Shown piece by piece: positions 9,899-61,978 of a DNA stretch of 64,000 bases. The notes under the pieces are model-generated. The model worked only from the letters and a program-made list of their open reading frames with translations. It ran no database searches and had not been told where the DNA came from. Positions within the stretch are counted from its first letter, which is position 1; each line of letters starts with the position of its first letter. The stretch is from Rhizophagus irregularis (lineage: Eukaryota > Glomeromycota > Glomeromycetes > Glomerales > Glomeraceae). Location of the stretch: assembly GCF_026210795.1 (NCBI RefSeq), contig NC_089431.1, forward strand, positions 5,022,001-5,086,000, written 5' to 3'. Made by a program: the position numbers and the translations under genes.

Positions 9899-12207
9899 AT
9901 GGACGAACTTAAAATAATTCTTTCTCCTCCTTTAATAAATTACATTATGTCTACTCTTCGATATGAATTAATTTATGCAACAAATAATAGAGCAACAATG
10001 TTAACTGATACCAATATTTACAATGATATACACAAACAATTTGAATTTCGAAAACAAACAGTCCTTGCTGATAAAATTCTTACAAATGATGAAATAACTG
10101 AAGCAATAAGAGAATTAACTAAAGATTATGATCTAGGTAAAGTTAGAAATAATTCAGGGTCAAAAAGAATTTGTGAAAATTGTGACCAAAATTGTTTAGC
10201 CACATTATATTGTGAATATTGTGTCCGAAATTATTTAAAAGAAAATTTTTCAAATTGGACATCTGGGAATGATGATATTGACAATTTAATACAGAAATGT
10301 CAAATGGAATCACTTAATCCACAAATGATAATTGAATGGATTCCATATAACAATTTGAAAAATATTAATTATTTGACAAAAGGTGGATTCTCTGAAATCT
10401 ATACAGCAGACTGGATTAATGGAGATTATGGTGAATGGGATTCTGAAGAACAACAGTTAAAAAGACTTGGAACTTTCAAAGTAGTACTTAAAACGTTAGA
10501 AAATGTTGAAAGTGCAAATCAAAGTTGGTTTGAAGAGGTTTGTATAATTTTATTTGAATTTATTTATAAAATCCTAAGTTTTTTGTATTAATGATAGCAT
10601 GCTGTCGTTTAGGCTAAATCACACTTAACTATAAATAATAAATGGTCAGTTATTGCTCAATGTTATGGAATGACACAAAATCCATCAAACGGAAATTATA
10701 TGCTTGTAATTTTGAAAATGGATATAGATTTAAGAAATTATTTACAACAAAATCATAATCAACTTACATGGAAAGATAGAATGAAAATTATTGATGAAAT
10801 AACTCGCGCGCTTTATTATATTCATAAAGAGAAAGCAATTCATAGAGATTTGCATTCTGGAAATATATTATATTCAAAATTTAATGATCGGTGGTATATT
10901 AGTGATCTTGGATTTTGTGGACCTGCTGATAAATCTTCAACAAGTATATATGGAAATCTTCCTTACATAGCACCCGAAGTTATCGTTGGAAAAGAATATA
11001 CTTTTGCATCTGATATTTATAGTATTGCAATTCTTATGTGGGAAATTTCATCTGGACAAACACCATTGATATTGTAATGAATATTATACACGGTATAAGG
11101 CCAAAAATTGTGACAGGAACTCCATTAGAATATAAAAATTTAATGAAAGAATGTTGGAATGCTGATCCATTAAAAAGACCTGACGCTTATGCACTTGAGA
11201 AAAGAATGGAAAGAATTAATATAGATTATCAAAATATGTCAGATGAATTATTCAAATCAGAAATAGATGATATAGAAATGAATAAAGTAGGAGAAAATTA
11301 TACGAGTAGCAGATTATTTACAAGTAAAATTTACAACTTTGAAAATCTACCTGAACCAAGAAATGCAACAGAAGGTATAAATACATTTCTTAATAAAATA
11401 TTATACACTTATTCTAAAATACATTATTAACGTTATCTTTTATTATAATAGAAGAACAAGAAGGTATAACCATAAAAAATGATAATTTCTACCATTTTTT
11501 TTTGTTACTATAATAATTTACTTTATTTTACTACTAATAGCGTTTCATAGTAAATTGTATGATTTTAACATTCCTAACAATAGTAAGTATTTATTAACAT
11601 TGCAGCGTTGAATTATCATATAATGATGTTTAATAATTGATATTTATTTTAGTTAACGATTTTAATAAATCAAATGAGCAGAATAGTTCAAAAGTAGTTA
11701 CTATTTTTGAAGGTAATGTATTTTAATTATTGTCTTATCGTCAAATCAAGATTGAATTTTTATATTAAATCAATATCTTAAATTTTAGATAGTAATAAAA
11801 AATTATCTAAATTATTTAAAAAGTTGCAAATAAATTCAATTGGTAAGAATAATTATAAATTACTAACAAATAAAATTCATTATTATATTAATTTCATTTA
11901 TTTATTGAACGCGGCTTTATTTAATTTAGATGATGAAAAAGAAATAACTCAACAACAAATAAAAAGACAAAGTATTAATGTTGATGGTAGGTGAAAATTT
12001 TACGTAATAACAAATAATTTTCACTATTTTAATTCTATTTATTTTTTTTCTTTTTATAGATGATGATGAAGTATATAATAATCCAAATTTTCATTCAAAA
12101 GAACAAGATGAACTGGAAATTCCTGATGGTGAGTTCTTAAATAAATAAGATTTCTTTTTAAATCAATTTACTAATTTGGTAATTTTTTATCTTTAGATGG
12201 ATTTTAA
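9899..12207 (+). CDS. TKL-type protein kinase with phase-1 micro-exon tail, frameshifted
   Basis: Exon 1 is 9899..10537 and exon 2 is 10613..11374; small exons follow at 11452..11463, 11653..11712, 11789..11842, 11930..11986, 12060..12128 and 12197..12207 (stop). Cys pairs CENC and CEYC, then WTSGN, precede the kinase domain (glycine loop KGGFSEIY, HRDLHSGN, SDLG in place of DFG, APEVI). Near 11,055-11,075 a net deletion between SSGQTP and MNIIHGIRP shifts the frame, so the C-lobe is read in another frame (from about 11,060). The tail has TSRLF...FENLPEP, then KKLSKLFKKLQIN. After the shift every exon stays open and in phase to the stop. Either the gene is a recent pseudogene or the frame loss is an assembly error; without it the protein would be about 590 aa. 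Confidence 0.75.
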
Positions 12208-13251
12208 ATTGACTTTATAAATCAAACCAATATTATATTATATTTAAAATTGTTATCATTTATTTATACTTTATTTTAAGTTATTTAAACACTAAGATTA
12301 GAGTAGTTAAAATGTTTAACAAGATTCTTAGTTTGTAATTTAAATAATTACTATATAATAAAGTTATTAAATTATTAAATCTATAAATTATCAATAAAAA
12401 ATTAATAAAAATTATTAACTGTTACAATAACGAATAATTCGAATTTAGGCGAAAATAATAATAAATTTTACATTATTAAATAATATATAATCTTTTGTTC
12501 AATCCAAAAACTATGTTCTTTGTCGTTATTTATTCTTATCTAACTTTATATCATATATATAAAAAAATGATGAGGTTCAGATAATAATCCCTAAAACAGT
12601 AATATTTCAATTTTCCGTATGATGAATTTATTTTAACTATTAATAAGCTTTTTAGAATTTTAATCTACTCCTAACTAAAAATTATCTAAGGGATAAGGCT
12701 TATGGTTATATTAAAATAGTTTTCGGGAGTTTATTGTGAATTGTGATACAGGAATATGGATGTCTAAAAAATTTTTCATTCATTCTTTTTATTTTTTCTA
12801 AATTTTATTCATTTCTTTAGATGGATTTTAAATTTTTTTTTTGGTAAATTATATAAATTATCTAGAAGCCATTTATCATAGCAGTGCAGCGTTGCACAAT
12901 TATTACGTTCAATTTTGATGTCGATGCACAATTTTAATACATCCTAATGCTCACAATTCCCAAATGTGCAATTCATATTAAAAACCAAACTTAAATAAGA
13001 TGTATGAAATATATGAAATACATAATTTGATAATTTCTTTTTATAGGTAGGATCTATTTACCATTTTTTTGATAGCGTATTTGATAATTTTTTTTAGTAC
13101 TGTATTATCCATCATTTTTCTTGATTTAACAGTATTTAATAATTGGATTATTTATCAGTTATTCAATTTAACCAAAAATTCAAAACAAAAATCTTAATTA
13201 TCTTTCTATCGATATCACTAACAATTTATCTTCATATATTATTAAATTTAG
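12208..13251. other. AT-rich interval downstream of kinase
   Basis: No ORF of note. A second copy of the kinase's terminal exon sequence, acceptor plus ATGGATTTTAA, lies at 12,815-12,831. Confidence 0.4.
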
Positions 13252-21563: not shown

Positions 21564-24500
21564 TTATAAACCTAAAATCTTTTTTCGTTTCTCAAGTAGT
21601 ATGATTTCTCTTTCAAGTTCATCATTTTTCTGTTTTTGAATAATTAGCATGTCTTGCTCCAGATCTTTCATTTTCCTTTGTTCTTCAAGACGTAAATTTT
21701 CATCTGAATCAATAATTTCAATTACATTTTCTTTATTCCTGAAATTACTTTTTTGTTTCTTTCTTGTATTTGAAGATAATAAAGGTTGTTTACCCTTACG
21801 CCTTTTCTCTAAAATAATTTAATCAAATACATTGTAATCAATTAAATTAAGTAAATTTCAGTTAAAATAAATCAAAGATATTTACCTACTCTTTGTTCAG
21901 CTTGAATTAATCGAGTTAATTCAGATTTATTTCGATATGAATCTGGAACATTATATTTTTTATAAATATCTATACTTTCCCACTGTCTATTATCAAAATC
22001 ACGTCCTCTTTAAAAAGAAAGAAAATTATTAGAATTGCATTTTTTAACAAAAGTAATTTTTGAATTTGTAAATAATAATCAAAATAAAATAAATAATTAC
22101 CTAGCAATACCAGCAAGGAGAGAAAGGTTACGACCATCATGATTTACATTTGCATGTGCACTTTCTCCAACGTTTGTATTATTTGGAGTTTGATGCCAAA
22201 TATTACTATCCATTTTAGTAAATGCATATGAAACTCCTGACAAAACCCATGGAGTACGCTTATCATTTACCCAAGCTATAATAAAAATTAAACACTTCAA
22301 TAAAATTATTAAATAATTTAACTTAATATTTGCGATTTTATTACCTGCAGTTCCTGGTTCTTCACAAGACTCAATTTTATTTAATACTTCTAAGACTTCT
22401 TCTTGTGTATTTAAAGAGGGAATTAAATACATAGCATTGCGAATTTCTCTTGATAATTGTCTGTTTTTGTCAATGTTTCTAAAATAAAGGAACAGTTAAT
22501 AATTTATTGTTATAAATAATTAATATTTATTATATAAAATCTTACCGTTTATAATGGACCTGACAGAGTTTATAAATATATTGCAGATGTTCAACTGGAG
22601 CTAGATGTGGATACTTTGAACTTAAATATTGACCTAAACCTTTAATTATTTTTTTTTTTTAATGTCATAAATTAATTATATTGTTAAAATAACTCATAAT
22701 ATAAAATTTTAACATACCTAACGCTTGTCCTTTGTGTTGATCTGCAATTATACATCCCAATCCTTTGCCATGAATATGATAAAAGCTAAAAGTTTCTCCT
22801 GTATCCCTTTCAATACAATTAAATAGGTCTTCAAATAAATTTTGATATGCATTAGCTGTTTCAACATTTGTAAATATTCGCACAAATGTTAAAGCTAGTA
22901 CAAAATTTTAATAAATAAAATCAGTAATAATAAAAAATTTAATAAATATTTATTATAAATCTTATAAATCTAAATTTAGCTTACTTTTTTGCACGTGAGG
23001 TAGATATGCTGCTACTTCCCATTCATTTGTAATACCATGAATTCTTTTAAATGCCATATCAATTTCAAAATATGTTAGTTCAGAAAGTGCTTTGAGTTGT
23101 TGTTTGGTAGCACATAAAACAATGTATTGTCCACTATCAAGAAAACCTGAGTAAAATGAAATATTAGATTTTATTTATAAATATCGTATTAATAAATTAA
23201 TATACAATTAAATTACTTACGAATTGATCTTATATATGGATCATTGCTTTTTTCATGTTTCATAAACTCATGTACAACTCCCAAAATGTTTTGGCCGAAT
23301 GGGTATTGTGAGCGTCTGGTTTTCTCAATATAATAATTGATCTTAGATTGATTATTTAACGATGGGTGCAAATCACTTATTGCCCTTCCATTCAAATAAC
23401 TTTGAATCATAGATCCTATTTATAATTATCAAAGAAGAGTTGTAACTATTCCTTTATAAATTACAAATATATAATATAATATACCTGTTAAAAACTTTCT
23501 TGCCGTTAAATCAAGTATATGCTCATTATCAATTATTTTTTGAAGCTGATTCTTCACATTGTATGGTGTTTTGCGAGGTGGAGGAGGTGGATGATTATGT
23601 TTACCTACCGATACAGTTACAATGAATGGACAATCTTTTAAATTTTCTGGAATTATATGGTAAAATTTAACTGGACAACTGTCAGTCTTCTTATTTATAA
23701 TTCCTTTGATAATACGATTTCCAGCTTTATGTAAAAATGCTAAAAGTTTATTCAAAAAATTATAATTAAAAATAGTATATGACGACATTATAGATAACAT
23801 TATTAGTTAAACACTTACGACATTCATCTGATCGTGTACTATTAGGCCGTACTATATAACATTCATCTACTACATCCAATTCATCCTTCTATAATTTAAA
23901 TATTAATGAACATTATTTTTTTTAAAAAAAATCATCTGTTTAAATTATTTTAATAATTAAATTTACCTCAAAATCAATTCCATTGGGATGGTAAGAATGC
24001 CCATTAAACATATCTTCTAATAATTCTAAATCAATATTGCTTGGAATTGTTAGATAACGGTGATTTTTTTCCCCAGATTGCCATTTAGTGCAACCAATAA
24101 ACTTCTTTTTTGATGACGTTGAGCCTATCACCTATAAATAATTATATAGAAATTAGTTTTATAATTACAATAACAATAATTATTTCGCAGTAAATTAATT
24201 ATTTAATATCATAATTTATAACAAATAGAAAATATTTGAACTTTTATACTTTATAAAAGTTAAATTTGCAAATAAAAAGTAAAAATAATCGCAATATAAT
24301 TATAAACATGTTAAACATACTTGTGTAAATTCGCCTAATGTTGGTGTACCATTACACCGTATTCCTTTTTGATCAACATACCCACATTTATACTCGTGCG
24401 CTTTGGCAAATATACTTTAAAATTTAAAAATTAATAATTAAATCATTATAAATAATTCCAATGTATAAATTTACTACTAACCAAAGGGTTGCTCTTTCCT

Positions 24501-27166: not shown

Positions 27167-28265
27167 CTATACGACTTGAAATATTTCAATTTCTCCTATA
27201 ACATCACAATCATCTGTGTTTCTGATCGGTTTTTCATAAGATTCTTTGTGACATTGAATTATTGATCCATTGGTAGCTCGAAGATCTCCATTACCAAATG
27301 ATGGACCCTCGGTGAATCCGTTACAAATGGCATCCTTTTCATTTCTTACACGACTTAAAATAATATCACTATTCTTAAAAGAAAATATAAAGCTATCGTT
27401 GGTAATACCATAACTTCCATCAAATTTCCATTCAATCGGATTATATCCTCCAAGAATTTCGTCACTATCTCTCATTTTATAAATTGTTACGGTTCGGAAT
27501 TGATTATTACAAGCGTTTTGGCACTTCTTAAATCTAAATAACGAACCAAAAAACCCAATGTCATTATGAGAATCACGATATAATAATTTGAATTCATATG
27601 ACTTTTCTGTAGTTTCTAATTTATCGGTCCATTTTGAGATTAATACGGCTTGCTGATTTGTAATGATCTTAGAATCGATAATAATCTCTTTAACAATTTG
27701 AGATTCTGATTTTTTGATTGGTTCGTTATCATTATCCAAAAAATATTCTAACAAATCATTATATAATTCCTTTGGTAAGATTTTTTTATAAGGTTTTACT
27801 TTCTTCAAAAATTCTTTGGAAGTTAAATTACGGAATTTAATCAAAGGAATACATTTTTGTAAAGTATTCTTTAAAGTATTGAAATCAACTTTTGATAAGC
27901 TTGTAGGATCGGAAGGAAGTTCTGGATTTTGTGCAAGTCCCCATTTAATCACACGTTCCCAAACTTGAGTTTCGCTCATTTGATGATTATCGTTCTTAAT
28001 AATCGTAACCAAAAGTATTTCTGGTACTGAAGTGAAACGTGGTGAATTTAATATCTTATTTGGTTCTTTTGAAATAAAATCAGTACAATATTTTTGAAGT
28101 TCTAAAAAAGAATCATTTTCAAAACTTGTTCGATATATCAAATCAAAATTCTGTTCCATCCAATGTTTTTTATTTTCAATCAAAAAGGATTCTAAATAAG
28201 GGATTAATTCCTGAAGTCCTAGTTCATTAGCAGCTATCAAGATTTTAATAATATCTGAGATATTA

Positions 28266-30091
28266 CCGTACAGTTCCGAAATTAAGCAACCCCCGAAAAT
28301 AAGCAACCCCCCAATAATAATAACCTCCGAAAATAAGCAACTCACGAATTTCTGTAATAAAAAATTAATAAATGTAATAAAAAATAATCAACATTGCTAA
28401 AATTAACTTAACAATTCAAAATAAAAGATAATTTTATTATGTATTATAAATGAAAATTATTATAAACTACAGTAGTATTATGGCTATTCATTATTAATTC
28501 ACTATCACTATTCAATGATATCATCATCGGAACTTTCATTGTCAGTAATTTCATCATCAGTTCCATCCAAGGACGTTGAAATCCTACAAGTCTTGAAAGA
28601 CTCAATAACTATTTCATCTGAGATTCTGTCCCAAGCACGTTTGACCCATCCACAAACATCAGATAATCTAGCACGGCGAAAGTTACCTGATGCAGTCATT
28701 CCGGAGCCACCTCCTGCCATCCAGATGTGCCATTCCTTACGAAGATTGTCTTTAAATGGTTTATTAATGGATACATCAAGTGGTTGACATATGCTAGTTA
28801 AACCACCTGGAATAACTGCTAGATCAATACCCCTGTCACGAAATTTGATTTTGACCGATTCTTCAAGATGTCCTCTAAAGGAATCGTATACCATCATTGT
28901 AGGAGCGTTACTGATACCCATTTTCCCCAGATTACTATTAACATAATCAACATAATCCTTCATTAGTTCAGAATCCATCCACCCATTTTGTTGAAACCAA
29001 ACAATGACGCCAGAAGGAATCTGTTCGCCATGTGGTAGCCGTTTTCCCTTAAAGATACAAATTGGTGGAAATTTTGTACCATCTATAGTATAAAAAAATA
29101 GAGTAAGCAATGTTAAAAGTAAGTGATTATAAAATGATCTTACCCGCGGAAACTGTCAAAACAACCGTGAATCGGTTTTTTTCATTGCCAGTTCCGCGAA
29201 TATGAATTGTTTTTTCGCCTCTGTTATCAATAGTAAAATTCCCTGTCATGTCAAACCAAACAGGGGTTTCGTCCATATTAAGGATATTGGACATCTCAAA
29301 TAATTTTTCAGTTCTCAGCCGAGTGACAAACTCTTGAAAGTTTTTCAGCAGCTCATTCGTTTGTGATGGTAGCTTTTGTGAAACTTTAGTACGCCGCCGC
29401 CAAGATAAATTATGTCTTTTCATAAATGCAGAAATCCAACGGTTTGATGTTTTAAATTCATTTATTGAATTTCCATAAAGACTTATCATAGTAGGTTTTT
29501 TTAAAATGTCTAGCATTTTAACTCGTGCAATTGCATATGTGACACCTAATCCCTGCTTTCTTTGCTCAATAATCCAATCGTATAGTTCCTTTTCAGCTTC
29601 TGGGTAAAAGCTTTTTCGACCGGAACCTACCCGTTTGCTGTTTTGGTTTGTTTCGTTTACCCACTTTTCATTTAAATTAACCCAGCGACTAACCATACTC
29701 TTATCAAGTTCAAAAGACTTTGATGCTTTAATTATTCCATTTTCTTTAGCATAAGCAACAACTTGTCTCTTTTGCTCAATAGAATATGAGTTGCGATGTC
29801 GTTTGATAATTTTTTTATTAGCAACTCTTTTACTAACGACCATATTTTGTCTTCTCTTTTTTTGTAACGGCATATCGTGTGGAGAGTTTTAGGAAAAACA
29901 AGATTGCGCGTGACTAATTATTTATCGATCACAGTATTGTGTCACGTTATACCGATCATTTGATCATTTAAATTACAAAAAAACGAACAATTTCTTTCGT
30001 TTTCTTTGGATTTTTATTCAAAAAAAATATATAACCCGAAATTAAGCAACTCTATAATAAAAAAGTGTTGCTTAATTTCGGAACTGTACGG
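28266..30091 (-). mobile_element. Complete pogo/Tigger-type DNA transposon
   Basis: 1,826 bp with a perfect 25-bp TIR starting CCGTACAGTTCCGAAATTAA, flanked by TA at 28,264-28,265 and 30,092-30,093. Short tandem copies of CCGAAAATAAGCAAC lie just inside the left end. It encodes one spliced DDE transposase. TA target and CENP-B-like transposase place it in the pogo/Tigger branch of Tc1/mariner. Confidence 0.93.
28508..29873 (-). CDS. Pogo/Tigger-type transposase
   Basis: Exons 29873..29144 and 29082..28508 join across a 61-bp GT-AG intron to give 434 aa. The N-terminus is basic with a helix-turn-helix (YSIEQKRQVVAYAKENG..KSMVSRWV), then a second CENP-B-like DNA-binding region (YDWIIEQRKQGLGVTYAIARVKM, NRWISAFMKRHNLSWRRRT). 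The catalytic core shows NMDETPVWFDM, MVYDSFRGH and QPLDVSINKPFK, the three Asp positions of DDE_1 family enzymes. The C-terminus is acidic. No lesion is visible. It would cut and paste elements with the matching TIR. Confidence 0.9.
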
Positions 30092-30469
30092 TATATTCCT
30101 CCAAAGAAAATCTACCTCCATAAATATACCTAAAATAGTAATAAAAAAAATTTATGTAAGAAAAAAAATATTTATAACGCATGATGAGAGGTATTCTCAT
30201 TTTTTTTCTTACCTTAAGATTATTTGGAAAGTATCAGGTAAAATACTTGGTAGTTTAATATTTGTCAAAGTTCCATTATTTTTCTTTTTATTAGTTGATA
30301 AAATTCTTCGCAAATAAGAGGAACGATAATTTAAGATAACCATATGAGCACGAAATATTTTTACGTCAGGGTCATTACCAACTTCAATTGTAATATCATA
30401 ATATTCTTCATCATTTAAAATTTCAAGTAAATTTTGTGTTAATTTCGATAAAAGATTGTTATCAATCAT

Positions 30470-41964: not shown

Positions 41965-43698
41965 ATGGAAGAATTTGTGCTTACTGATGATATAATTGAA
42001 CAAATAAAAGATTTTGACCATGAGGGCCTAATTGAAGAACAAAGTTTGTTAATTGATAAGTTAATATTAAATGAGGAATTAAAAAAACGTTATAAAAAAA
42101 ATGGTTTATGCAAAGAATGTAAGCAGCCTAATACATATTATCAAGGAGATTATAGTATTTGGTGTATGTCATGTAATGCTAAGAATTTTCAACAAAATTT
42201 CAAGAATTGGACTAGTGGAAATCATGAAGTTGATAAGTTTATTCAAAAAACACAACTTAAAGCTAAAAATTTAAGTGAAGTTTTAGAATGGATTGAATAT
42301 GATAGATTTGAAAATATTGAATACTTGACAAAAGGAGGATTTGGAACTATTTATAAAGCAATTTGGAAAGATGGACGGATAAAAAGTTGGGATTTTGAGA
42401 ATAATAAATGGACAAGAAGTAAATATTATTGTAGGGAATATGAGGATTTTCCAGTTGTTTTAAAATGTTTACATAATTCTCAAGATATTTCATCCGATTT
42501 TTTAAGAATAGTAAGTTACTTATTTTGTATATAATTTCAAGATATTGTCCTATTATAAATGTTAAACTACCTATTAATTATTATTATTATGGATTCTTTT
42601 TTAGATTGAAACACATATGTTTGTTTCAAATTATGGAGATCGTATAACAAAGTGTTATGGCATTACTAAAGATCCAGAATCTAGAAATTTTATGATAGTA
42701 ATGGGATATGCAAAAGATGGTAGTTTAAGACAATATTTAAATAGTAGTTTTAATTCAATAAAATGGAATGAAAAGTTGGTTATTTTACAAGTTATTGCAC
42801 AAGGCCTCGATGATATTCATCAAAAAAGGGTTAATTCATCGTGATTTTCATTGTGGTAATATATTAAAAGACAGCCATTTTACTTTTATTACTGATTTAG
42901 GATTATGTCGACTAGCAAATGTAAAATCATCTCAAAATGAATGTAAAGAACTATATGGAGTATTACCTTATGTAGCACCAGAAGTTTTAAGAGGAAAAGA
43001 ATACACTCAAGAAAGCGATATTTATGGATTTGGAATTGTTGCATATGAAGTCTGTACAGGGCTACCTCCTTATCATGATATTATTCATGATAAATTCTTA
43101 GCTATTAGCATTTGTCAAGGACTTAGGCCAAAATCAAATTATAAAATTCCTCAATTAGTTTTAAACATAATTAAACAATGTTGGGATGCCGATCCTTTAA
43201 AACGACCTAAAGCAAATGAATTAGAAGATTTATTTGACAAGTTATATGATGAGTTAGATTATGATTTTGATGAAGAATATATAAATGAAATCTATAAGCA
43301 AGTTGAAGAAGCAGAAAAATTAATGAAAAGTTAATATCATCATCATCATTATATACTGGTCCTACTCTTTCATATACTACAAATCCTCAAGCAGTTTACA
43401 CGAGTAGACTTTTAGATTTTAAAAATCTTCCAGAGCCAATAAATGCTATTGATAATAAGGATGATGATAATTCATTTGGAGAATATTCAGGTTATTAATT
43501 TCCTAATTTACTTTACAAATGCATTCTTTAAATATTTTATTTGATGTAAATAATTATTTTTTTTATATTACAGAATCAATAGAAGCAATAGATTTTACTA
43601 AACTAGACCCTAGGTACTTATATACATTAACTTTTTATATGATTTATTTATTAATAATATTATTTAATAATTTATTTTTCACTTATAGAAGCAGCTGA
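41965..43698 (+). CDS. TKL-type protein kinase, four exons, two frameshifts
   Basis: Exons 41965..42510, 42605..43490, 43574..43613 and 43689..43698. N-terminus: CKEC and CMSC pairs, then WTSGN. Kinase domain: KGGFGTIYKAIW, VVLKCL, HRDFHCGN, TDLG in place of DFG, APEVL, CWDADPLKRP. An extra A in the run CAAAAAAGGG (about 42,826) shifts the frame just before HRD, and a one-base loss near 43,330 shifts it again before the tail (SSSSLYTGPTLSYTT, TSRLLDFKNLPEP). The last two tiny exons add ESIEAIDFTKLDPRSS. The first lesion, at least, is in a homopolymer, so these may be sequence errors rather than true decay. About 490 aa if the frame is continuous. Confidence 0.75.
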
Positions 43699-48928: not shown

Positions 48929-50415
48929 ATGGTTGATAATAAACTTTTGACAAAATTATCACAAAATTTACTTGAGATTTTAGACAACGAAGAACATTAT
49001 GATATTATAATTGAAGTTGGTAACGATCCTTACATAAAAATATTTCATGCTCATATGATTATTTTGAATTATCGTTTTTCTTATTTTAGAAGAATTTTAT
49101 CAACCAATAAAAAGAAAGATTTGACAAACATTAGATTACCAAATATTTTACCCGATACTTTTCAAATAGTCTTAAGGTAAGATAAATAAAATCTCGTTCA
49201 TCATTTGGTCATGCGATAATTATATATTTTTTACAAACTTTTTTAATCATTTAATTATTTTAGGTATATTTATGGAGGAAAACTCTCATTGGAAGAATAT
49301 GATATTTCAGATATCATTAAAATTTTAGTTACTGCTAATGAACTCAACCTTCAAGAATTAATCCCTTATTTAGAATCTTTTTTAATTGAAAATAAAAAAA
49401 ATTGGAATGAACAAGATATTAATTTGATATATCAAACTTGTTTTGAAAATAATTCCTTTTTAGAACTTCAAAAAAATTGTACTAATTTAATTATTAAAAA
49501 ATCAAATAAGATATTTAATTCGTCGAATTTCACTTCAATCCCAGAAAAATTATTAATCACGCTTATTCAAAATCATCAAATGAACGAAATTCAAGTTTGG
49601 GAACATTTAATTAAATGGGGACTTGCTCAAAATCCTGAACTTTCTTCCGATCTTACAAGCTTTTCAAAAGATGATTTTAGTACTTTAAAGAATACCTTAC
49701 AAAAATGTATTCCTTTTATTAAATTCCGTAATTTAACTTCCAAAGAATTTTTGAAGAAAGTAAATCCATATAAAAAAATCTTACCGAAGGAATTATACAA
49801 TGAATTGTTAGAATATTTTTTGGATAATGATTACGACCTAAATAAAAAATCAGAATCTCGTACTAGTATTAAAGAGATAGAATCGAAAAATATTGATTCT
49901 AAAATCATTACAAATCAACATGTTGAAATAATTTCAAAATGGATTGACGGATTAGAAATTACAGACAAATTAGCAAGTTCATACGAATTCAAATTATTAT
50001 ATCGCGATAGTGAAGAGTCTGGTGGAGCGCTTGTGAGGATTAAAAAATTTCATGAAGTATGTGATGATCATTCCCGAACTGTAACAATCTTTAAAGTGAA
50101 GGACAGAAATGAGATTCTTGGAGGATATAATCCGATTGAATGGAAATCTGATAATAGTTATTGAATTACTAAAGATAGTTTATATTCTCTTTTAGAGATG
50201 AGAATTGTATTTTAAGTCGTGTAAATGATGAAACAAGAGCTATAAATAATAATATTTTTGACGGTCCATCATTTGGTCTTGATCTATATTTATGTTGTGG
50301 CAGGAAAATCTTTTGTAAGCAACATAATTATGAAAAGCAGATCAAAATCGACAATGATGATGCATTACTTTTAGATTTTTTCGAGGTATTTCAATTATGC
50401 AGGGTTAATGATTGA
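48929..50415 (+). pseudogene. BTB-BACK-TLDc gene, broken in TLDc
   Basis: Exons 48929..49176 and 49264..50415 (87-bp intron). BTB and BACK are intact. In TLDc the Gly codon of the SYG-ITKDS motif has become TGA (about 50,162). Just after it the IFSFNN part has lost bases, so two lesions separate the rest (…GPSFGLDLYL…FEVFQL). The truncated product would have BTB-BACK but only half of TLDc. First unit of the tandem array. Confidence 0.85.
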
Positions 50416-52168
50416 ATCCTCTAAGTCCAATATTTTCATAATTTAATACATGATTAGTTGAATCAGTAGCAAAATAAGCTAGATTGAACGTAAGCCTTAT
50501 TTCTATTTCATTTTAATATCATTAAAGCTTCCGGTCGAATCATATTTGTAGCTCATGAAAAAAACATTAAAATAAATTAAAAATAAAGGTAAATTCGCTT
50601 GTCTAGTAGTTTAGATTTTGAAACTGAGTGTGTTGATCTTAAACACGAAAACTCATTAAGACAATCATAGAAAATTGCCGAGTTTAAGGGGCTAGAACAA
50701 CGTAATAATTAATATTTTATTCCTAATCTCCGATGCCAACATAAAAGGCTGCGTTTTTTACGAGGGTTGCGTAGAATAATAAATTCCCTTAAGTCTTAAC
50801 TTTATGACATACATTTTTTAAATTTATATTGATTTAATAATAAAAATTATTTTTATTAAAATTGGTATAATTTATCTGTAAAGGGTTATACATAATAATG
50901 TATGTGCTATACGCCTATACCGCTAGTAAATTATATATTTACCACTAATATATGATTTGAACTTGAATATCTTTATTTTCAATTATTATTAGAATTTGAA
51001 TTAAATCTCAAGACTACAATGGTTGTTATAAAATTTTGTTTGGATATTCATTACATTTTACCACATTCAATCAATCATTGAAATACCTCTAATCATTTTA
51101 AAGAATGTATCAATTCTATTAATTCTCCATCGTAAGATCTTCATTCTCTATATGAAACAAAATATAAGTTTCAGCGTAAATTTAATGAGATTATATCTTC
51201 TAAAAATTCTGTTGCTACCATAACCTTAATCCCGTTAAAAAATCTAAGAAATCCATTAGATTAATCGCGAAAATAAATGTATGTTAATTTCTTAAAATTA
51301 TAGTAATAAATTTATTAATCAAAATTTTATATAACATTTTCTCGTAGGGATTAATATTTGAATATTTGAATTGATCGTGTGAATTTTATGTATTTATCCC
51401 TAATGCCGACATATCATTGCTTGTATACGAGTTGAGTAACGTAAAACATTAGCCCTGTTCATTTCCGGTCGGTTGCATTTTTCGGTCGGATTTTGTTGTA
51501 CAAAAATTATTCAACAAAATTTTTTTATTTTCGATCACAAATTGAACTGCTTTAGATTGAAATTTAGTTCGAACTCCTTATATTGATATATATTTTTTTC
51601 TTAAATGTCACGTAAACAGAAATTATCTAATTTTGGTTCCAATCAAAATTAACTTAAATCTGACCGAAAAATGCGACCGACCAGAAATGAACAGGGCTAT
51701 TAATACTTATTAGTATCCTACAGCCGAATAGAATCATGCTTTTTTCATCGTGCTGATATTTTTTATTAACTAACTATAAATAAACTACAGTTGCACAATT
51801 ATTATTGATATTTTTGCATATACAAATAACATGTAAGAGGCAAAAGAACACGTCGCGTTAAACTGGAAATAGTTTAATCGATAGTTTATCGTATTCAGTT
51901 ATAAGCCATGATCATAGGCAGCTGCAGGATAATACAGTTATTTGATAGGAGGGCTAAAATATCATCCGAACTTCGGCCCATCTGATATACCTTAGCGATC
52001 ATTAACTTCTTTGAACACGTAATCGTGATTGGCTAATTAATTTACTTTATGGAGATAATTTTTAACCGATTAATGGATAAATAAGCTACCTTGTATCCGT
52101 AAAAGAAAATATTAAAGCTTGAAAATAAAGACTTGAAATTAATTTTTTTAAACTCACATCCTTTTATA
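50416..52168. other. Intergenic spacer of the BTB array
   Basis: Its first 500 bp are homologous to the other unit flanks. It contains the MITE at 51,451-51,698. No gene. Confidence 0.55.
51451..51698. mobile_element. 248-bp MITE
   Basis: Inverted termini of about 40 bp, AGCCCTGTTCATTTC(C/T)GGTC..., with ATT on both sides (51,448-51,450; 51,699-51,701). The inner part of the TIR repeats CGGTCGG. Non-coding. Superfamily not settled; a 3-bp target could suggest PIF/Harbinger. Confidence 0.7.
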
Positions 52169-53651
52169 ATGGTTGATAATAAACTTTTGCCGAAGTTATC
52201 GCAAAATTTACTTGAGATTTTAGATGACGAAGAATATTATGATATTATAATTGAAGTTGGTAACGATCCTTATGTAAAAATATTTCATGCACATATGAAT
52301 ATTTTGAATTATCGTTCTCCTTATTTAAGAAGAATTTTATCAACAAATAAAAAGAAAAATGACGGAACTTTGACAAACATTAAATTACCAAATATTTTAC
52401 CCGAAATTTTTCAAATAGTCTTAAGGTAAGATAAATACTAAGTAAAACAATAAAATCTTGTCATTTGAAAATTATATTTTTTTTTAATAACTTTTTAATT
52501 ATTTTAGGTATATTTATGGAGGAAAACTCTCATTAGAAGAATATGATATTTCAGATATCATTAAAATCTTAGTTGCTGCTAATGAGCTCGGCCTTCAAGA
52601 ATTAATCCCTTATTTAGAATCCTTTTTAATTGAAAATAAGAAAAATTGGATTGAACAAAATATCAATTTGATATATCAAACTAGTTTTGGAAACAATTCT
52701 TTCTTAAAACTTCAAAAATATTGTACTAACTTAATTATTAAAGAACCAAATAAGATATTTAATTCGTCGAATTTCTCTTTAATTCCAGAAAAATTATTAA
52801 TCACGCTTATTCAAAATCATAAAATGAGTGAAATTCAAGTTTGGGAACATGTAATTAAATGGGGACATGCGCAAAATCCGGAACTTTCTTCTGATCCTAC
52901 AAGCTTTTCAAAAGACGATTTTAATACTTTAAAGAATACCTTACAAAAATGTATTCCTTTTATTAAATTTCGTAGATTAACTTCCAAAGAATTTTTGAAG
53001 AAAGTAAAACCATATAAAAAAATCTTACCGAAGGAATTATATGATGACCTATTAGAATATTTTTTGGACAATGATTACGATCCAAACAATCGTACTATTA
53101 AAGAGATTAAATCAAAAAATATTGATTCTAAAATCATTACAAATAAGCATGTTGAAATAATCTCAAAATGGATTGATAGATTAGAAATTAACGACAAATT
53201 AACAAGCTCGTATGAATTCAAGTTATTATATCGTGATTGCAATGATGGATCTTGGAATAGACTTAAAAAATTTCATGAAGTTTGTGATAATCATTCCCAA
53301 ACTGTAACAATTTTTAAAGTGAAGGACAGAAATGAGATTCTCGGAGGATATAATCCGATTGAATGGAAATCTGATATTAGTTATGGAATTACTAAAGATA
53401 GTTTTATATTTTCTTTTAATAACGACGAGAATTACATTTTAAGTCGTGTAATGGATGAAACGAAAGCCATAAATAATAATAATTTTTACGGTCCATCATT
53501 TGGTCTTGATCTGAAATTACAATTGCTTTTTAGTGACGGGAAAATCTCTTGTGATAAAAATCATTATGAAAAACCGATCAAAGTTAACAATGATGATTCG
53601 TTTATTTTAGATTTTTTTGAGGTATTTCAATTGTGTAAGACTGATGATTAA
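52169..53651 (+). CDS. BTB-BACK-TLDc protein
   Basis: Exons 52169..52425 and 52508..53651 (82-bp intron, phase 2) give 466 aa without lesions. BTB: MVDNKLLPKLSQNLLEI, DIIIEVG, FHAHMNILNYRSPYLRRIL. BACK: IQVWEHVIKWGHAQNPEL. TLDc: FKLLYRDCNDGSW, GGYNPIEWKSDISYG, SFGLDLKL, FEVFQLCKTDD. An upstream in-frame extension begins at TTG and was not used. Second unit of the array and its only clearly intact member apart from the third. Confidence 0.92.
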
Positions 53652-54104
53652 ATAAGTCCTCTAAGTCTAATAGTCTAATTAATTTCTTCATAATTTATTT
53701 ATAAAATTAGTTTAGAAGTAATATAATCTAGATTGAATTTGTGCCTTATTTCTATATTAATATTTTAACATCGTTAAACGTTCTATGGCGTAAGAAACAA
53801 TGAAATTATAAATAAAGGCAAAATTGCTTGATACGTAGTTTATATTTTGATGCTGGGAGTGTTAAGCTAGAACAAGACAATATCATATTAGAAAAATGAC
53901 GAGTTTGAAGAGCTAGATCAATGTGATAACTAACATTTTATGCATAATTTCCGATGTCAACATAAACTAGAGCTGCGTTTTTTGCGCGGGTTGCGTAGAG
54001 TAATAAATTCTCTCAATTTATAACATACTTTTTTAAATTTATATTTGATTCAATAATAAAAATATAATTTATCTACAAAAGGTTATGCAAGATATGTGCT
54101 ATAT

Positions 54105-54352
54105 CCCTATAAAAAATATTGTCCGAACATTGTTCAGTTTTTTGTTCGGAAAATCGACCCCGTTCCGAACAGGGGAACATTACTTGACATTTATTGGACA
54201 TTCATCATGATATTGTACGTTTTTTATGTTGTTAAAAATTCTCACTCTCCGCATCTTGTATTAAATTTTAACAAATATTGTATAATGGCGTGCGAGTGTC
54301 CGGAAAATTGACCCCATTCCGAATATTTATCGGACAAACATTATTTATAGGG
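54105..54352. mobile_element. 248-bp MITE
   Basis: TIR CCCTATAAAAAATATTGTCC / CCCTATAAATAATGTTTGTCC, flanked by TAT on both sides. Inner direct repeats GGAAAATCGACCCCGTTCCG and GGAAAATTGACCCCATTCCG. The matching place in other units (near 50,910 and 63,825) lacks it. Confidence 0.7.
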
Positions 54353-54680
54353 TATCGCCAGTAAATTACATATTTATCACTAATATACCTGATATACTAT
54401 GATTTGAACTTAAAACACAGATATCTTTATTTGATTTTTAATCATTATCAGAATTTGAATTAAATCTCGGAACCACGATGATTGTCATAAAATGTTGTAA
54501 CATATAGACTTAACGTATTATTAAATTACGATTTATTTCATTCCAGATTCATTAATTATTACATTTTACCACATTCATCAATATTAATAATTTAAGAATT
54601 AAACAAACAACTTCATATGAATTTATTTTTGTAATTAATCTATTGAATTTCTTTGGGTTTCTTAATGGAATTAAGGTTAT

Positions 54681-54834
54681 CTTTACAGAAACTTCAAGAG
54701 ATCGTAGCGATGGCTTAATGCGCAGTAACTGCATATATGTAATTTCTTTACGATTACATAATGTGGTCACTATGTATTTATAACGCAGTTAATGCGCATT
54801 AAGCCATCGTTACGATCTTGAAGTTTCTATAAAG
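54681..54834. mobile_element. 154-bp near-palindromic MITE
   Basis: Arms CTTTACAGAAACTTCAAGA... and the inverse ending at 54,834 pair over about 45 bp. The unit at 57,781-57,800 reads straight through (ggttatggtag), an empty site. Confidence 0.75.
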
Positions 54835-55272
54835 ATGGTACTAGTAATAGAATTTTTTAGATATAATCATTAAATTTACACTGAAGATCTTACGATGATG
54901 AATTGATACATTCTTTAAAAAGAATCAGAAATATTCAATGATGTGATTATTGGTAATAAATTTGTTTACAATCAATTAAAAATTAAAAAACCAAAATTTT
55001 TATCACATTTTCTCGTAGAGATTAAAATTTTGAATTAATCTTATATATATGTATTTATCACCTCCAATGCGACATCTTGCAAGTTTACGAGTTCAGTTAA
55101 CGATTAACCTATTTAAACACGTGATCGTGATTGACCTATTAATTTACTTTATGGAAATAATTTTAGCCGGTTAGTAGTGGTTGGTTACCTTGTGACCGGA
55201 AAAAAAAATATTTAAGGTTTGAAAATAAAAAAAAAATGAAATTTATTTTATTTCAATCTACATCCTTTTATA

Positions 55273-56746
55273 ATGGTTGATAATAAACTTTTGACAAAAT
55301 TATCACAAAATTTACTTGAGATTTTAAACGATGAAGAATATTATGATATTACAATTGAAGTTGGTAACGACCCTTACGTAAAAGTATTTCGTGCTCATAT
55401 GGTTATTTTGAATTATCGTTCTCCTTATTTAAGAAGAATTTTATCAACAAATAAAAAGAAAAATGACGGAACTTTGACAAACATTAAATTACCAAATATT
55501 TTACCTGAAATTTTTCAAATAGTCTTAAGGTAAGATAAATAAATAAAAAATAAAATCTCGTTATTCAATAATTATATATTTTTACAACTTTTAATTATTT
55601 AATTATTTTAGGTATATTTATGGAGGAAAACTCTCATTGGAAGAATATGATATTTCAGATATCATTAAAATTTTAGTCGCTGCTAATGAGCTCAGCCTTC
55701 AAGAATTAATCTCCTGTTTAGAATCCTTTTTAATTGAAAATAAAAAAAATTGGATTGAACAAAATATTGACTTGATATATCAAACTAGTTTTGGAAACGA
55801 TTCTTTTTTAGAACTTCAAAAATATTGTACTAATTTAATTATTAAAGAACCAAATAAGATATTTAATTCGCCGAATTTCTCTTCAATCCCAGAAAAATTA
55901 TTAATCACGCTTATTCAAAATCATCAAATGAGTGAAATTCAAGTTTGGGAGCATGTAATTAAATGGGGATTTGCGCAAAATCCGGAACTTTCTTCTGATC
56001 CTACAAGCTTTTCAAAAGACGATTTTAATACTTTAAAGAAGTCCATACAAAAATGTATTCCTTTGATTAAATTCCGTAATTTAACTTCCAAAGAATTTTT
56101 GAAGAAAGTAAAACCATATAAAAAAATCTTACCGAAGGAATTATATGATGATTTATTAGAATATTTTTTGGATAATGATTATGATCCAAATAAAAAATCA
56201 GAATCTTTTGCTATTAAAGAGATTAAATTAAAAAATATTGATTCTAAGATCATTACAAATCAACATGTTGAAATAATTTCGAAATGGATTGATAGATTAG
56301 AAATTTCCGACAAATTAACAAGTTCGTATGAATTCAAATTATTATACCGCGATAGCGAAGATTCTGGTGGGATGTCTGAAAGGATTAACAAATTTCATAA
56401 AGTTTGTGATAATCATTCCCGAACTGTAACAATTTTTAAAGTGAAGGACAGAAATGAGATTCTTGGAGGATATAATCCGATAGAGTGGAAATCTGATATT
56501 AGTTGTGGAAGTACCAAAGATAGTTTTATATTTTCTTTTACTAATAATGAGAATTACTTATTAAGTCGTGTAAAGAATGAATTATATGCTATACTTAATT
56601 GTCCTCATTATGGTCCATCATTTGGTAGTGATCTGTATTTAAAACACAACAAAGTCCTTTGTTATAAAAATTATTACGAAAAACTGTTCAAAGATAACAA
56701 TGATGGTTCATTTATTTTAGATTTTTTTGAAGTATTTCAATTGTGA
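55273..56746 (+). CDS. BTB-BACK-TLDc protein
   Basis: Exons 55273..55529 and 55612..56746 (82-bp intron, phase 2) give 463 aa, intact. BTB: MVDNKLLTKLSQNLLEI, DITIEVG, FRAHMVILNYRSPYLRRIL. BACK: IQVWEHVIKWGFAQNPEL. TLDc: FKLLYRDSEDSGG, KFHKVCDNHSRTVTI, GGYNPIEWKSDISCG, FEVFQL. Exon 1 and the upstream region are almost identical to those of the unit at 61,979, so the duplication is recent. Third unit of the array. Confidence 0.92.
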
Positions 56747-57162
56747 AGGACTTATGATTAATAAATCCTCTAATATTTTCATAATTTATTTACAAGTTTA
56801 GATTAGAAACAATGTAATCTAGATTGAACGTGAGCCTTACTTCTATATTATTTTAACATCGTTAAACGTTCTATGGCGCGTAAAAACAATGAAATTATAA
56901 ATAAAGGCACATTTTATTCCTAATTTCCGATGCCAACATAAGGGCTGCATTTTTTACGCGGGTTGCGTAGAATAATGAATTCCCTTAAGTCTTAACTGAA
57001 CTTTATAACATACTTTTTTATAGTACATTTACTACTAATATACTGTAATATGATTTGAACTTTGAACAGATATCTTTATTTAATCATTATTAGAATTTGA
57101 ATTAAATCTCAGGTCCACAATGGTTGTCATAAAATTTATAACATATAGACTTGTATTACTTA

Positions 57163-57216
57163 TCTCCTGGCTAATTAGGAATAAGTAAAATTTTACTATT
57201 CCAATTAGCCAGGAGA
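57163..57216. repeat. 54-bp near-perfect palindrome
   Basis: TCTCCTGGCTAATT...AATTAGCCAGGAGA with two single-base offsets. It lies at the left end of the next element. Confidence 0.7.
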
Positions 57217-57632
57217 TAATTGATTTATCCCCTGCCATTTACACAATAGTAAGTGTTTTATAGTATATCGTGAGTTTAATATAGTTTATTTTATTGTTGT
57301 ATCTTATTTTTCTTTCGCTTGGTTTTTTTTTTCATTTTAAAAGATTTTAAAAAATAATTGAATTTTAAAATGCTTCGGAACTATTACTAATACACTTGAA
57401 AAATAATATTGAGATTACAAATAAATTAAAAGAAAGTTTTTCTCATTTGGAAAATGCAAATCTTTCCGAATTACTCAAATTTTCAAATCAGTCCATTATA
57501 GTATAATCAATAGTTAATTTTTACCGCAAAATTTCCTAGAAACGGATAAATAAATACATATAAAATTTGCTATCCAGTAGGTATAACTACATTTGCATAA
57601 TCGTGTAAATGGTGCCGATCAGGGGATAAAAC
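57217..57632. mobile_element. TIR element (MITE-like), copy 2
   Basis: Left terminus TTATCCCCTGCCATTTACAC; inverted right terminus GTTTTATCCCCTGATCGGC, with TA adjacent. Homologous to 5,697-6,055 in opposite orientation. The unit at about 54,510 has no insertion here. It contains an ORF segment NNIEITNKLKESFSHLENAN..., conserved in frame with copy 1 and ending at the same stop. Confidence 0.7.
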
Positions 57633-58029
57633 GTATTAAACCACCATTTATTTCATTCCAGATTCATTAATTATTGCATTTTACCACATTCAATCAATAT
57701 TAATAATTTAAGAATTAACAACAACTTCATATGAATTTATTTTTGTAATTAATCTATTGAATTTCTTTGGGTTTTAACGGAATTAAGGTTATGGTAGTAA
57801 CAGAATTTTTAAAAGATATAATCTTATTAAATTTACACTGAAACTTTTATTTGTTACATATGATCTTACGATACATTCTTTAAAAATATTTTAATGATGT
57901 AATAAATTTGTTAAAAATTGAAAAATTACATTTTCTCGTAGAGATTAAAATTTTGAATTAATCTTATATAATTTATCTCCTCCAATGCAACATCTCATTG
58001 CATGTTTACGAGTTAACGTAAATAGCGAT

Positions 58030-59364
58030 TGAGCATCCTTAACCTGTACCCGGGTATAGGTTATTATCCTGTACCCCTTTTTTCTTAAATATGAGCCCAA
58101 GATGTGGCACATTCGATCATTATTAGCCACAGGGCAATTGTACAACATTTTCTAAGAAAATATTTTTGCTGTTTACGCGCGAAAAAATATAAGAGAAAGA
58201 ACTTCAAAATATTTTAATTTCAAATATAACAAGAACCAAAACTTTAATATTTTTAATATTTTAACATTGCATTTCAAATTAAAATAAAATGTTTTATATA
58301 TAAAGTTTTAATAAACAAATATAAATACTAAAAATTTTTACAGAAACTTTAAACTAAAATACTTTTATTTGTCAATAAATACTCTAACTAAATTTAATGT
58401 CCAAATATTCCAACACCTACTGAACAATTCTACTTATTTGACAATAGCTAGTATAGTTAAATAAAGTGATGAAATTATTCTGTAAAAAAAGGTATTATAT
58501 ACGCGCACAGTAAAATATTTACTCAATAATCATAAAAATTAATATCTGGATACTTCATACCTGCTGAACAACTTTACTTATTCAATAAAAGCAAGTTTTG
58601 TTTGACCAAAATGCTTAAATTACGCCATAGTATTTATATGAAAAGTTGAATATATTACAAATAGTGAAATAGTGAGTATAGTATACAAACTAGCTTGGAG
58701 AAATATCTGAGTAGTTTCATACCTGCCGAATAATTTTACTTATTTAACAAAGCCATATTATTTGGTTAAAATAATATATATATATAAAATAATACTGAGA
58801 TTTCTGTACAAAAAACAAGATTTAATGTGAAAATTATTCTCAACTTTACAAATAATACACTATATATAAGCCAGTGTTTAAGAATATTTCTTTTTAAACT
58901 TTTAAAAATATTTTTAAAAAATAACTGAAAAGAAGAGAAAAGGAAGAGAGAAGAAAAGAAAAAAATGTGTACTATGTTTACTAAAAGAGTGGTAGATCTA
59001 AGACTATTACAAATAAAAGTAGATGGCATTTTCATGTGAAATAACTAATATATGTGTATAGAATCCAGATCTTCATCCCCTACGAGACCTCACTCTTTGA
59101 TCAGAACTATTCGAAAAAATGACTACGCTATTTGATCGAAGGGGTACCTCAAAAAAAACCCTCTGAAGAAATAGCTAAAAGATCTAAAAAGAAACAAAAA
59201 AAATAAAATTAGCAATGAGACGAACAAAAAAAAAACTACAAAAAAAGAATTCAAGTCATCATTTGTATTTTCTTTTAACTAATAAAAATTAGCTATTGTA
59301 TGTAAATACTGTCATATACAAAATGTTATAGGTTAATCAGGTCCATAATTGTTTTTTAAGGTGT
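58030..59364. other. Left part of a 3.8-kb insert in the array
   Basis: AT-rich with no recognised gene. Short ORFs at 57,945-58,148 and 58,766-59,035 lack support. Confidence 0.4.
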
Positions 59365-60740
59365 GATCTATTTTAATAAGGGTTTAGTTGAAGGCCCAGG
59401 GATAGATAGACCTATTCTATTTTTGATGCTATATGCAATCTTCTTCTTGTGGTCGTTGGAGTGCTTTGTGTTATCAATAAATTGGTTAAAGAAGGTGTTG
59501 GGATTATTAATGATGTTTCGGTGTTGTGATGAAATAATGAAAAAGGAGGAATCATCATCCGTCCGAGGTAAATTGTCTATTATCAACAGATGAGACCGTC
59601 TTTGGAGGTAATTGTCATATAATTCTTTGGCTTTTGTATAACCATAGTTATATTGAGGTATGGAGGTAACGTCAAATCAACGTCTTACTTTATAATCAAA
59701 AAGGTTAATATTGTAAATATTGAGATAGTATAGGCGAGAATTGCCTACGTTATTAGGAGGTAATGGTGGTAATTTCTTTTTCTTTTTGTTTTATTTTTTG
59801 GTTCTTCGCAACCAATTCTTGGTGTGACATATAAAGGTATGCTCATTTTCAGCATTACAGGGATATACTGTACCTCTTTCTACAAAATGACTTAGTTGTT
59901 TAAAAACATTAGGTGTGGGAGAATTCTCTGAACGTGCGATTAATATATAAGGCCAAATATAATTTGAATGACGCTCTGTATTAAGTATTTTTTTTTTAAA
60001 ACGGTTCCACCATTTTATTTGTTGAGGAGATTGAACAATGTCGTATTTTGTAATACAAACGAGTAGTTGGGATGCCTTTTTCGTGACAATTTTGGTAGGT
60101 TCCATTACTTCTTTAAGGTGAGGATCTGATTTCCTTCAGTGTTCATTGTATTTCTTTATAATGACTTCATATTTCATGCCCAAACGTGTTGAATGAACTT
60201 TTTTTGCAAGGTTATGTCCAGTGCGACTCAGGTTTTGATAAAAAGTCAGGTTTTTAGGAAACTTTTCCTTTGGTTGATCATCAAAAAGAACTACTGTTAA
60301 TGAGCATAAATGTTCATTACAGTGTCAACAGTTTTGTGATAAGATGAATGCTGCGGGTTGAGAACAATTAATTATTGTTCCATAAAAACCTAGAGAGGTA
60401 TCACAAGGTAAATAAAATTCAAGATTAATCACTGGAACTGAACAGAATAAAAGTTTTTGTTTGTCTATTTTTAGAGGACTATGAAGATAATCTATTTCTG
60501 ATAGCCACTAATTTTTCTTTCAATAACTGGCGTAAGCATTTAAAATATTTATTAACAGTGTCTTGTGAGAATTGTCAATTGATAGCAAATGTAAATGTGA
60601 AGTATGTTCTGATAAGGTAATCAATGTTGAGTTTCTTACTAGTTGAATTGAAGATCCTTTGTGAATCATATCAATATCATTGGTGTAAACAAAAAAAAAG
60701 ATCATTTTTTGATAAAGAAAGATCAACATTTTCATCTAAC
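59365..60740 (-). pseudogene. Frame-conserved decayed gene, family unknown
   Basis: On the minus strand one reading frame can be followed for about 455 codons, broken only by about seven stops. Readable pieces include TSHLHLLSIDNSHKTLLINIL, VPVINLEFYLPCDTSLGFYG, CNEHLCSLTVVLFDDQPKE, QIKWWNRFKKKILNTE, FVERGTVYPCNAENEHTF and NIINNPNTFFNQFIDN. Two stops read TGA where CGA is plausible. No transposase or other motif is recognised. No second copy is visible in the window. Confidence 0.5.
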
Positions 60741-61811
60741 TTGATGAGAAAATATCTAGATTTTACAGTGTGCCACTACCATGTGTATCTGATACAACAT
60801 AGGGGTTGAATTTTTTAGTATAAAAGGAAAAGTTTTAAGTTTTACAAGAATAATATAGGTAAATGAGCTTTGGAGCCTTCCTGAGGTTCCTTAGGGGTAG
60901 TCTTTTCTGCACATAATTCCTTTTAAGAGGTTTTCATAATGTTAGAAGGAGTATAAAGGTATTTGTAAATACCATTGTGGTTAAAGTTGTTCCTAATTTT
61001 TTATACAGAAAACAATAGGAAGAAAATATGACAAAAAGTAAAAGAAATGGTTTAATATTATTAAAAGCATAGTTTGGATGTAATAATGACACTCTTTTTG
61101 AGGGGTATAAGTGGAAACGAAAGTTTTTTGTAATAAAAATAAAATGTCTAACTTTGTAAAATTTTGTTCCAAATTTTTGTGGGAAAGAGTTTTTTTTTAG
61201 TCAAAAATGTGTACTATGTATAACATGTAAACGATAAACAGGCTGTCATGCTACTATCACATAGGGAGAACAGGATATTATCGTAATACCTCTAAGATTC
61301 CCCATAGTGATTTACCAATTTACCCCAGTAATGCCACAAAAAATTTCCACCTCAACGTAATTTTTGACCGGCATTATATTTCTCGGCCAGCATTAAGAAA
61401 TTAAGCATGTGACAAATAAGCATGACAAATAGGATTTTACACACTGAAAAATCTGTTCCTGGAATACATACATAGTAAAAATGGAAAACAGGAAGGGTGT
61501 GAAACTGGTGACAAATTTTTAAGGTCACGTGGGGTGGAAATTTTTTGTGGTGATACTGGGGAAGATCTTCCCCAGTACACCCACCGCGTTTTCACTGTTT
61601 ATATTTATCTGAGGGACTTAGTTTTTTTTTGCCTCACAAAATTATTTTTTTCACATCCCTTTAAATGTCACCGGTCACGTGGGGTGGAATTTTAATTATA
61701 AAAGTGTCGGTGATACTGGGGTAAATAGTAAATACTGGGGAAGAGCCCAGTCACGTGGTGAAATTTTAATTATAAAATTGGTGGTACTACGGTAAAATCG
61801 GTAAATCGATT
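60741..61811. other. Right part of the insert: inverted and direct repeats
   Basis: 61,310-61,563 is a palindromic element: TTACCCCAGTAATGCCACAA on the left, its inverse (GTGGTGATACTGGGG) on the right. Further direct copies with GGTCACGTGGGGTGGAA lie at about 61,674 and 61,752. The motif CACTGTTTATATTTATCTGA at about 61,594 recurs at about 5,264. Confidence 0.6.
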
Positions 61812-61978
61812 TACCTATTTGAACACGTGATCGTAATTGACCTTTGGCCTATTAATTTACTTTATGGAAATAATTTTAGCCGGTTAATGGTTACCTTGTG
61901 ACCGGAAAAAAAAATATTTAAGGTTTGAAAATAAAAAAAAAATGAAATTTATTTTATTTCAATCTACATCCTTTTATA

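Follow-up and report, generated by a model that had tools for sequence, protein, structure and literature searches.

A Protein Kinase Gene of Rhizophagus irregularis with a Broken Reading Frame and a Predicted Tail of Short Phase-1 Exons

Introduction

Does a protein kinase gene of Rhizophagus irregularis continue into a chain of very short, frame-neutral exons, and would such a tail be translated behind the kinase domain? The question is raised by a locus at positions 9899–12207 of a 64,000-nucleotide stretch of contig NC_089431.1, which is called the window here and whose numbering is used throughout. A first-pass annotation had placed six introns, all in phase 1, after the kinase domain and had read the product as a modular tail. 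According to the available portion of PMC8647823, the kinase and BTB families of R. irregularis have high copy numbers and adjoin Mutator-like elements. In the available portion of PMC6123716, PF07714 is the most frequent motif among species-specific and expanded genes. The accessible parts of the papers found on the kinase family, its introns, and micro-exons (including PMC8647823, PMC10234402, PMC6123716, and PMC4771724) contain no description of the tail exons, and no mention of the tail peptides was found by a text search of papers.

Results

Layout of the Kinase Gene and Break of Its Reading Frame

The gene is designated kinase A. Exon 1 (9899–10537, plus strand) was identified as an open reading frame and by spliced reading. 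It encodes an N-terminal region and the kinase N-lobe, ends in the residues WFEE, and is related to the window kinases at 41.9 and 4.7 kb (tblastn). An intron of 75 nt in phase 0 with GT and AG termini (10538–10612, plus) joins EE to AKSHL in exon 2 (10613–11077, plus), which carries the kinase domain as far as SGQTPLIL, with a stop next. Ten window proteins, the spliced tail included, were searched against Pfam. Exon 2 matches Pkinase at 9.5e-26 and PK_Tyr_Ser-Thr at 1.7e-24 and passes the curated cutoff for the protein kinase superfamily (PF00069/PF07714) with 91.2 and 87 bits. Solved kinases also match exon 2, the best being FGFR3 at 6e-13. The exon 2 sequence contains the HRD and APE motifs and a DLG in the place of DFG.

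The reading frame of exon 2 ends at the stop at 11077, and the complete kinase domain does not lie in one reading frame. The break was placed by protein alignment at 11066–11091 (plus), where the TP-to-GIRP spacing is 26 nt in kinase A versus 48 and 51 nt in two related window kinases, B and C, respectively. Approximately 22–25 nt are missing from the C-lobe of kinase A relative to kinases B and C, and the frame is thereby shifted so that kinase and tail stand in different frames. The remainder of the C-lobe with the pre-tail motif NFENLPEPRNAT (11068–11374, plus) is read in a frame other than that of exon 2. This segment gives a partial PK_Tyr_Ser-Thr match of 19.3 bits, under the cutoff of 23.1 bits, and is directly followed by the first tail donor, in phase 1. 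The kinase tail of the first-pass annotation thus stands as a predicted structure but, with the frame broken at about 11066–11077, is not continuous with the kinase domain.

Rescue of the frame by splicing was considered and rejected. The GT–AG stretches of 20–150 nt whose donors lie between 10673 and 11077 were listed, and 11 paths were found. The best of these, 44 nt in length, sums to only 3.5 bits and would cut out conserved kinase sequence. For comparison, the splice pairs of the ten training introns of the gene model described below, a small and partly paralogous set from which the scores were themselves derived, sum to at least 14.6 bits, and the tail pairs sum to 7.2–16.6 bits (at least 12.2 bits in six of the seven). 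A 26-nt GT..AG stretch at 11074–11099 would mend the frame; it scores −2.4 bits and is far shorter than the other introns here. No convincing splice path restores the frame of kinase A, and translation of the tail behind the kinase domain is unlikely because of this upstream break.

A working kinase would be expected if the break at 11066–11077 were an assembly or sequencing error and a full kinase with its spliced tail were made. The motifs in exon 2 and a tail and pre-tail segment that are open across all exons are consistent with this explanation, which is nevertheless unlikely. The difference of about 22–25 nt is no one-base slip, and five of the seven BTB-type look-alike open reading frames of the window are long (383–470 residues), which speaks against a generally faulty assembly. 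That argument from assembly quality is limited by the other two BTB-type frames, which are shorter (305 and 270 residues), and by kinase B, which is broken too.

Related Kinases and Genomic Setting

Three kinases were identified within the 64-kb window by tblastn. Kinase B (41.9–43.7 kb, plus) and kinase C (5.0–3.5 kb, minus) were each recognized by their relation to kinase A. The pre-tail motif LPEPxNA is common to kinases A and B (E 0.001). In kinase B the motif is followed by a phase-1 intron and then by an exon of 40 nt whose end is in phase 2. Kinase C has no tail intron and is open as far as its stop. A comparison with the tails of other family members had been proposed in the first-pass annotation as a check. 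Within the window, the agreement extends to the phase-1 intron behind the motif of kinase B; the 40-nt exon with its phases 1 and 2 and the intronless end of kinase C do not follow the pattern of kinase A. The frame of kinase B is broken twice within 42810–43340, once in a run of A and once before its pre-tail motif. No relatives were found in the collections of viral contigs and prokaryote genome contigs.

The Pfam domains in other window open reading frames are BTB with SPRY (35807) and BACK with TLD (52491), and the transposase domains DDE_1 (28508) and HTH_Tnp_Tc5 (29127). Diverged kinase paralogues with BTB-type and transposon neighbors, as in an expanded family, are therefore present in the window. 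A Gypsy-like polyprotein at 14–20 kb was recognized by eye. Four BTB-type paralogues on the plus strand (49247–63113) share a near-identical intron ahead of RYIYGG, and the open frames of the two at 49247 and 62301 are shorter than those of the other two. On the minus strand at 27167–30130, an RYIYGG exon (30128) and a BTB-type open reading frame (27167–28387) flank DDE/Tc5 transposase open reading frames (28508–29888). By eye, this arrangement looks as if a BTB-type gene had been split by a transposon.

Exon Chain of the Tail

In the six-intron model of the first-pass annotation, the tail donors are at 11375, 11464, 11713, 11843, 11987, and 12129, and the acceptors end at 11451, 11652, 11788, 11929, 12059, and 12196. 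The exons between them, all on the plus strand and obtained both by spliced reading and in the gene-model chain, are 12 nt (11452–11463), 60 nt (11653–11712), 54 nt (11789–11842), 57 nt (11930–11986), and 69 nt (12060–12128) in length. A terminal exon (12197–12207, plus) completes an Asp codon and then encodes Gly-Phe-stop. The five exon lengths and the phase of every tail intron were reproduced exactly by spliced reading of the sequence, and the unspliced frame runs to the same stop at 11430. The 54-nt exon is basic (five basic residues and one acidic) and the 69-nt exon is acidic (nine acidic residues and one basic). Every tail exon is open in one common frame.

The intron at 11843–11929 (plus) is 87 nt, a multiple of three, and contains no stop in the tail frame; stops are present in that frame in the other five introns of the six-intron model. 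If retained, this intron would add 29 in-frame residues of hydrophobic appearance. An exact direct repeat of 21 nt appears at 12190–12210 and 12814–12834, with the copies 624 nt apart. The first copy spans the last tail acceptor and the terminal exon, and the second lies downstream. The repeat may have remained from another tail end, may represent an alternative terminal exon, or may mark the flanks of an insertion.

A gene model was constructed from ten introns outside the tail and from the codon use in exons of the window's kinase and BTB-type genes. The search was started at the first tail donor (11375) with phase left free and introns of 55–110 nt. The best chain, with a score of 79.8, consists of the five exons and the terminal exon given above plus one exon of 42 nt. 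This probable exon, AFHSKLYDFNIPNN (11541–11582, plus), is in phase 1, has a weak acceptor and a GTAAGT donor, and lies inside the second intron of the six-intron model. That intron is 189 nt, versus 68–87 nt for the other introns of the model and 73–94 nt for 12 other introns of the window (including 10538–10612). With the exon added, the 189-nt intron is divided into introns of 77 and 70 nt, and the lengths in the seven-intron model are 77, 77, 70, 76, 87, 73, and 68 nt.

The search for this exon was prompted in part by its AFHSKLYDF stretch, which presumably resembles the tails of Rhizophagus kinases and is taken as a lead only. An exon that scores as well or better was found in 941 of 20,000 shuffles of the 189-nt intron (4.7 percent). 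The acceptor scores 0.2 bits, which is the 0.78 quantile among all AG dinucleotides in the window, and the codon-use score is −0.27 bits per codon. When intron length is made cost-free, the six-intron model is chosen (82.9 versus 79.8), and with a heavy-tailed intron-length term the seven-intron model is returned. With this moderate support, the exon at 11541–11582 is quite likely to be real and to have been missed in the first-pass annotation, whose count of six tail introns would probably become seven.

Intron Phase, Junction Codons, and Exon Skipping

The junction codons of the six-intron model are GAA, GTT, GAT, GAT, GAT, and GAT. The earlier observation that most junctions rebuild a Glu or Asp codon is borne out in that model (five of six) and in the seven-intron model (five of seven). 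A G precedes the donor at six of the seven tail donors and at nine of the ten training donors. When a phase-1 donor follows a G, the junction codon is GNN, and a subsequent A makes it GAN (Asp or Glu). The acidic junctions are accounted for in this way and call for no separate explanation. The occurrence of phase 1 at all seven introns corresponds by arithmetic to approximately 1 in 2000 if the three phases are equally frequent and independent.

Skipping of internal exons would be frame-neutral, as had been proposed, since their lengths are multiples of three and their phases are symmetric. A skipped junction also cannot yield a stop, because the carried base is G or A and stop codons begin with T. 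For the further suggestion of a modular tail, as for alternative use, no support was obtained here. The exons are no clear copies of one another, and the tails of kinases B and C differ. For the ten pairs formed by five tail exons, the mean similarity is 9.75 versus 8.49 (sd 0.70) in 200 shuffles (P 0.04), and the best pair has a P of 0.33. Descent of the tail introns from one element was also considered and rejected (21 pairs; P 0.195 for the mean and 0.075 for the best pair). The exon symmetry would most simply be an inherited structure, and it provides no evidence of regulated skipping.

Regulated cassette micro-exons, with tail modules skipped in combinations that alter the charge and docking of the kinase, are very improbable at this locus. 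They would fit the symmetric internal exons with their stop-free skipped junctions, the differing exon charges (one exon basic, one strongly acidic), and the weak acceptor of the 42-nt exon; skipped exons often have weak acceptors. The upstream frame break in kinase A argues against them, as do the asymmetric 40-nt tail exon of kinase B and the lack of a tail intron in kinase C, and the acidic junction codons are already explained by phase-1 donors that follow a G. Also very improbable is a whole kinase family in which all-phase-1 short exons form a combinatorial tail, with exon inclusion, that of the 42-nt exon first, setting charge and docking. If this were true, a high-copy signaling family would gain further diversity by splicing.

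Comparison with Chance Chains

The chain was compared with those obtained from 300 dinucleotide shuffles, where shuffles that yielded no chain were given a score of −99. The best shuffle score is 16.0, with at most five introns. The search was also run from 227 control starts elsewhere in the window with donor scores of at least 5.8, some of which are inside real genes. Chains with at least six introns were obtained from 15 of these. One control start, at 22717 on the minus strand, exceeds the tail (86.2 versus 79.8), and the next scores 79.66 at 22545. The top control chain (about 21600–22720, minus; score 86.2) has six introns that are not all in phase 1, and this stretch is perhaps another, unannotated multi-exon gene.

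The donor scores of the tail are 5.8–7.6, versus 5.8–12.1 for the self-scored training introns, and the acceptor scores are 0.2–9.0 versus 8.8–16.1. Among five tail exons tested, the codon-use score is positive in three, with a clear margin in the 57- and 69-nt exons alone, and is negative (−0.13) for the 54-nt exon. A chance exon chain in AT-rich DNA, with an unspliced tail and a gene end at 11430 or 11077, is hardly credible: the splice sites of the training introns are stronger than those of the tail and one other window start scores higher, but at least six introns all in phase 1 occur in 0 of 300 shuffles and from 0 of 227 control starts, and the tail intron lengths are uniform.

Discussion

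The exon chain, its phases, and the frame break were calculated for kinase A itself. Kinase A is probably a frame-broken copy from an expanded kinase family that has kept an ancestral spliced tail, and it would be either a pseudogene or the source of a truncated protein ending at 11077. In the proposed scheme, kinase A would belong to a large fungal family of PF07714/PF00069-type kinases as one of its copies. The predicted C-terminal tail is charged and probably flexible. Its six internal exons and its terminal exon are short, and the seven introns between them measure 68–87 nt and are all in phase 1. We infer that the tail would be spliced constitutively, by intron definition across the short introns, in intact paralogues, where a flexible docking or regulatory function may be expected. 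The most likely outcome of a deletion of about 22–25 nt in kinase A is a truncated kinase or a pseudogene. The decay, if any, is recent, because all tail exons are open in one frame. Unless cassette use is seen in RNA, kinase A is an ordinary member of a gene family with fast turnover.

Members of a high-copy fungal family may thus carry tails that are truncated when open reading frames are read in a single frame, here at 11430, and a gene copy can look complete although the frame is disrupted in its kinase domain. If exon use varies among intact paralogues, splicing-based diversity in these symbionts could be tested cleanly by counting tail isoforms.

Exon shuffling in animals follows a 1-1 exon rule. 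The internal exons of the kinase A tail are likewise all 1-1, like the symmetric phase-1 exons of animals treated in the available part of PMC8001218, but the tail exons are short charged pieces, with no folded modules and no clear copies.

Neuronal microexons, of which N1-Src is an example, are likewise very short exons that preserve the frame of a kinase gene, as described in the accessible portions of PMC12369926 and PMC5577857. These microexons lie within an interaction domain and are used as cassettes under regulation, whereas the exon chain of kinase A gives no indication of regulation. Five of the six internal tail exons, at 42–69 nt, are over the limits of 27–30 nt given for neuronal microexons in the parts of that literature at hand.

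The closest likeness is to the expanded PF07714 kinases of R. irregularis and other arbuscular mycorrhizal fungi, with which kinase A shares the PF07714/PF00069 domain. Its location near BTB-type and transposase genes matches what the available portions of PMC8647823 and PMC6123716 say of high-copy genes in R. irregularis. Kinase A differs from the expanded family by the frame break in its C-lobe.
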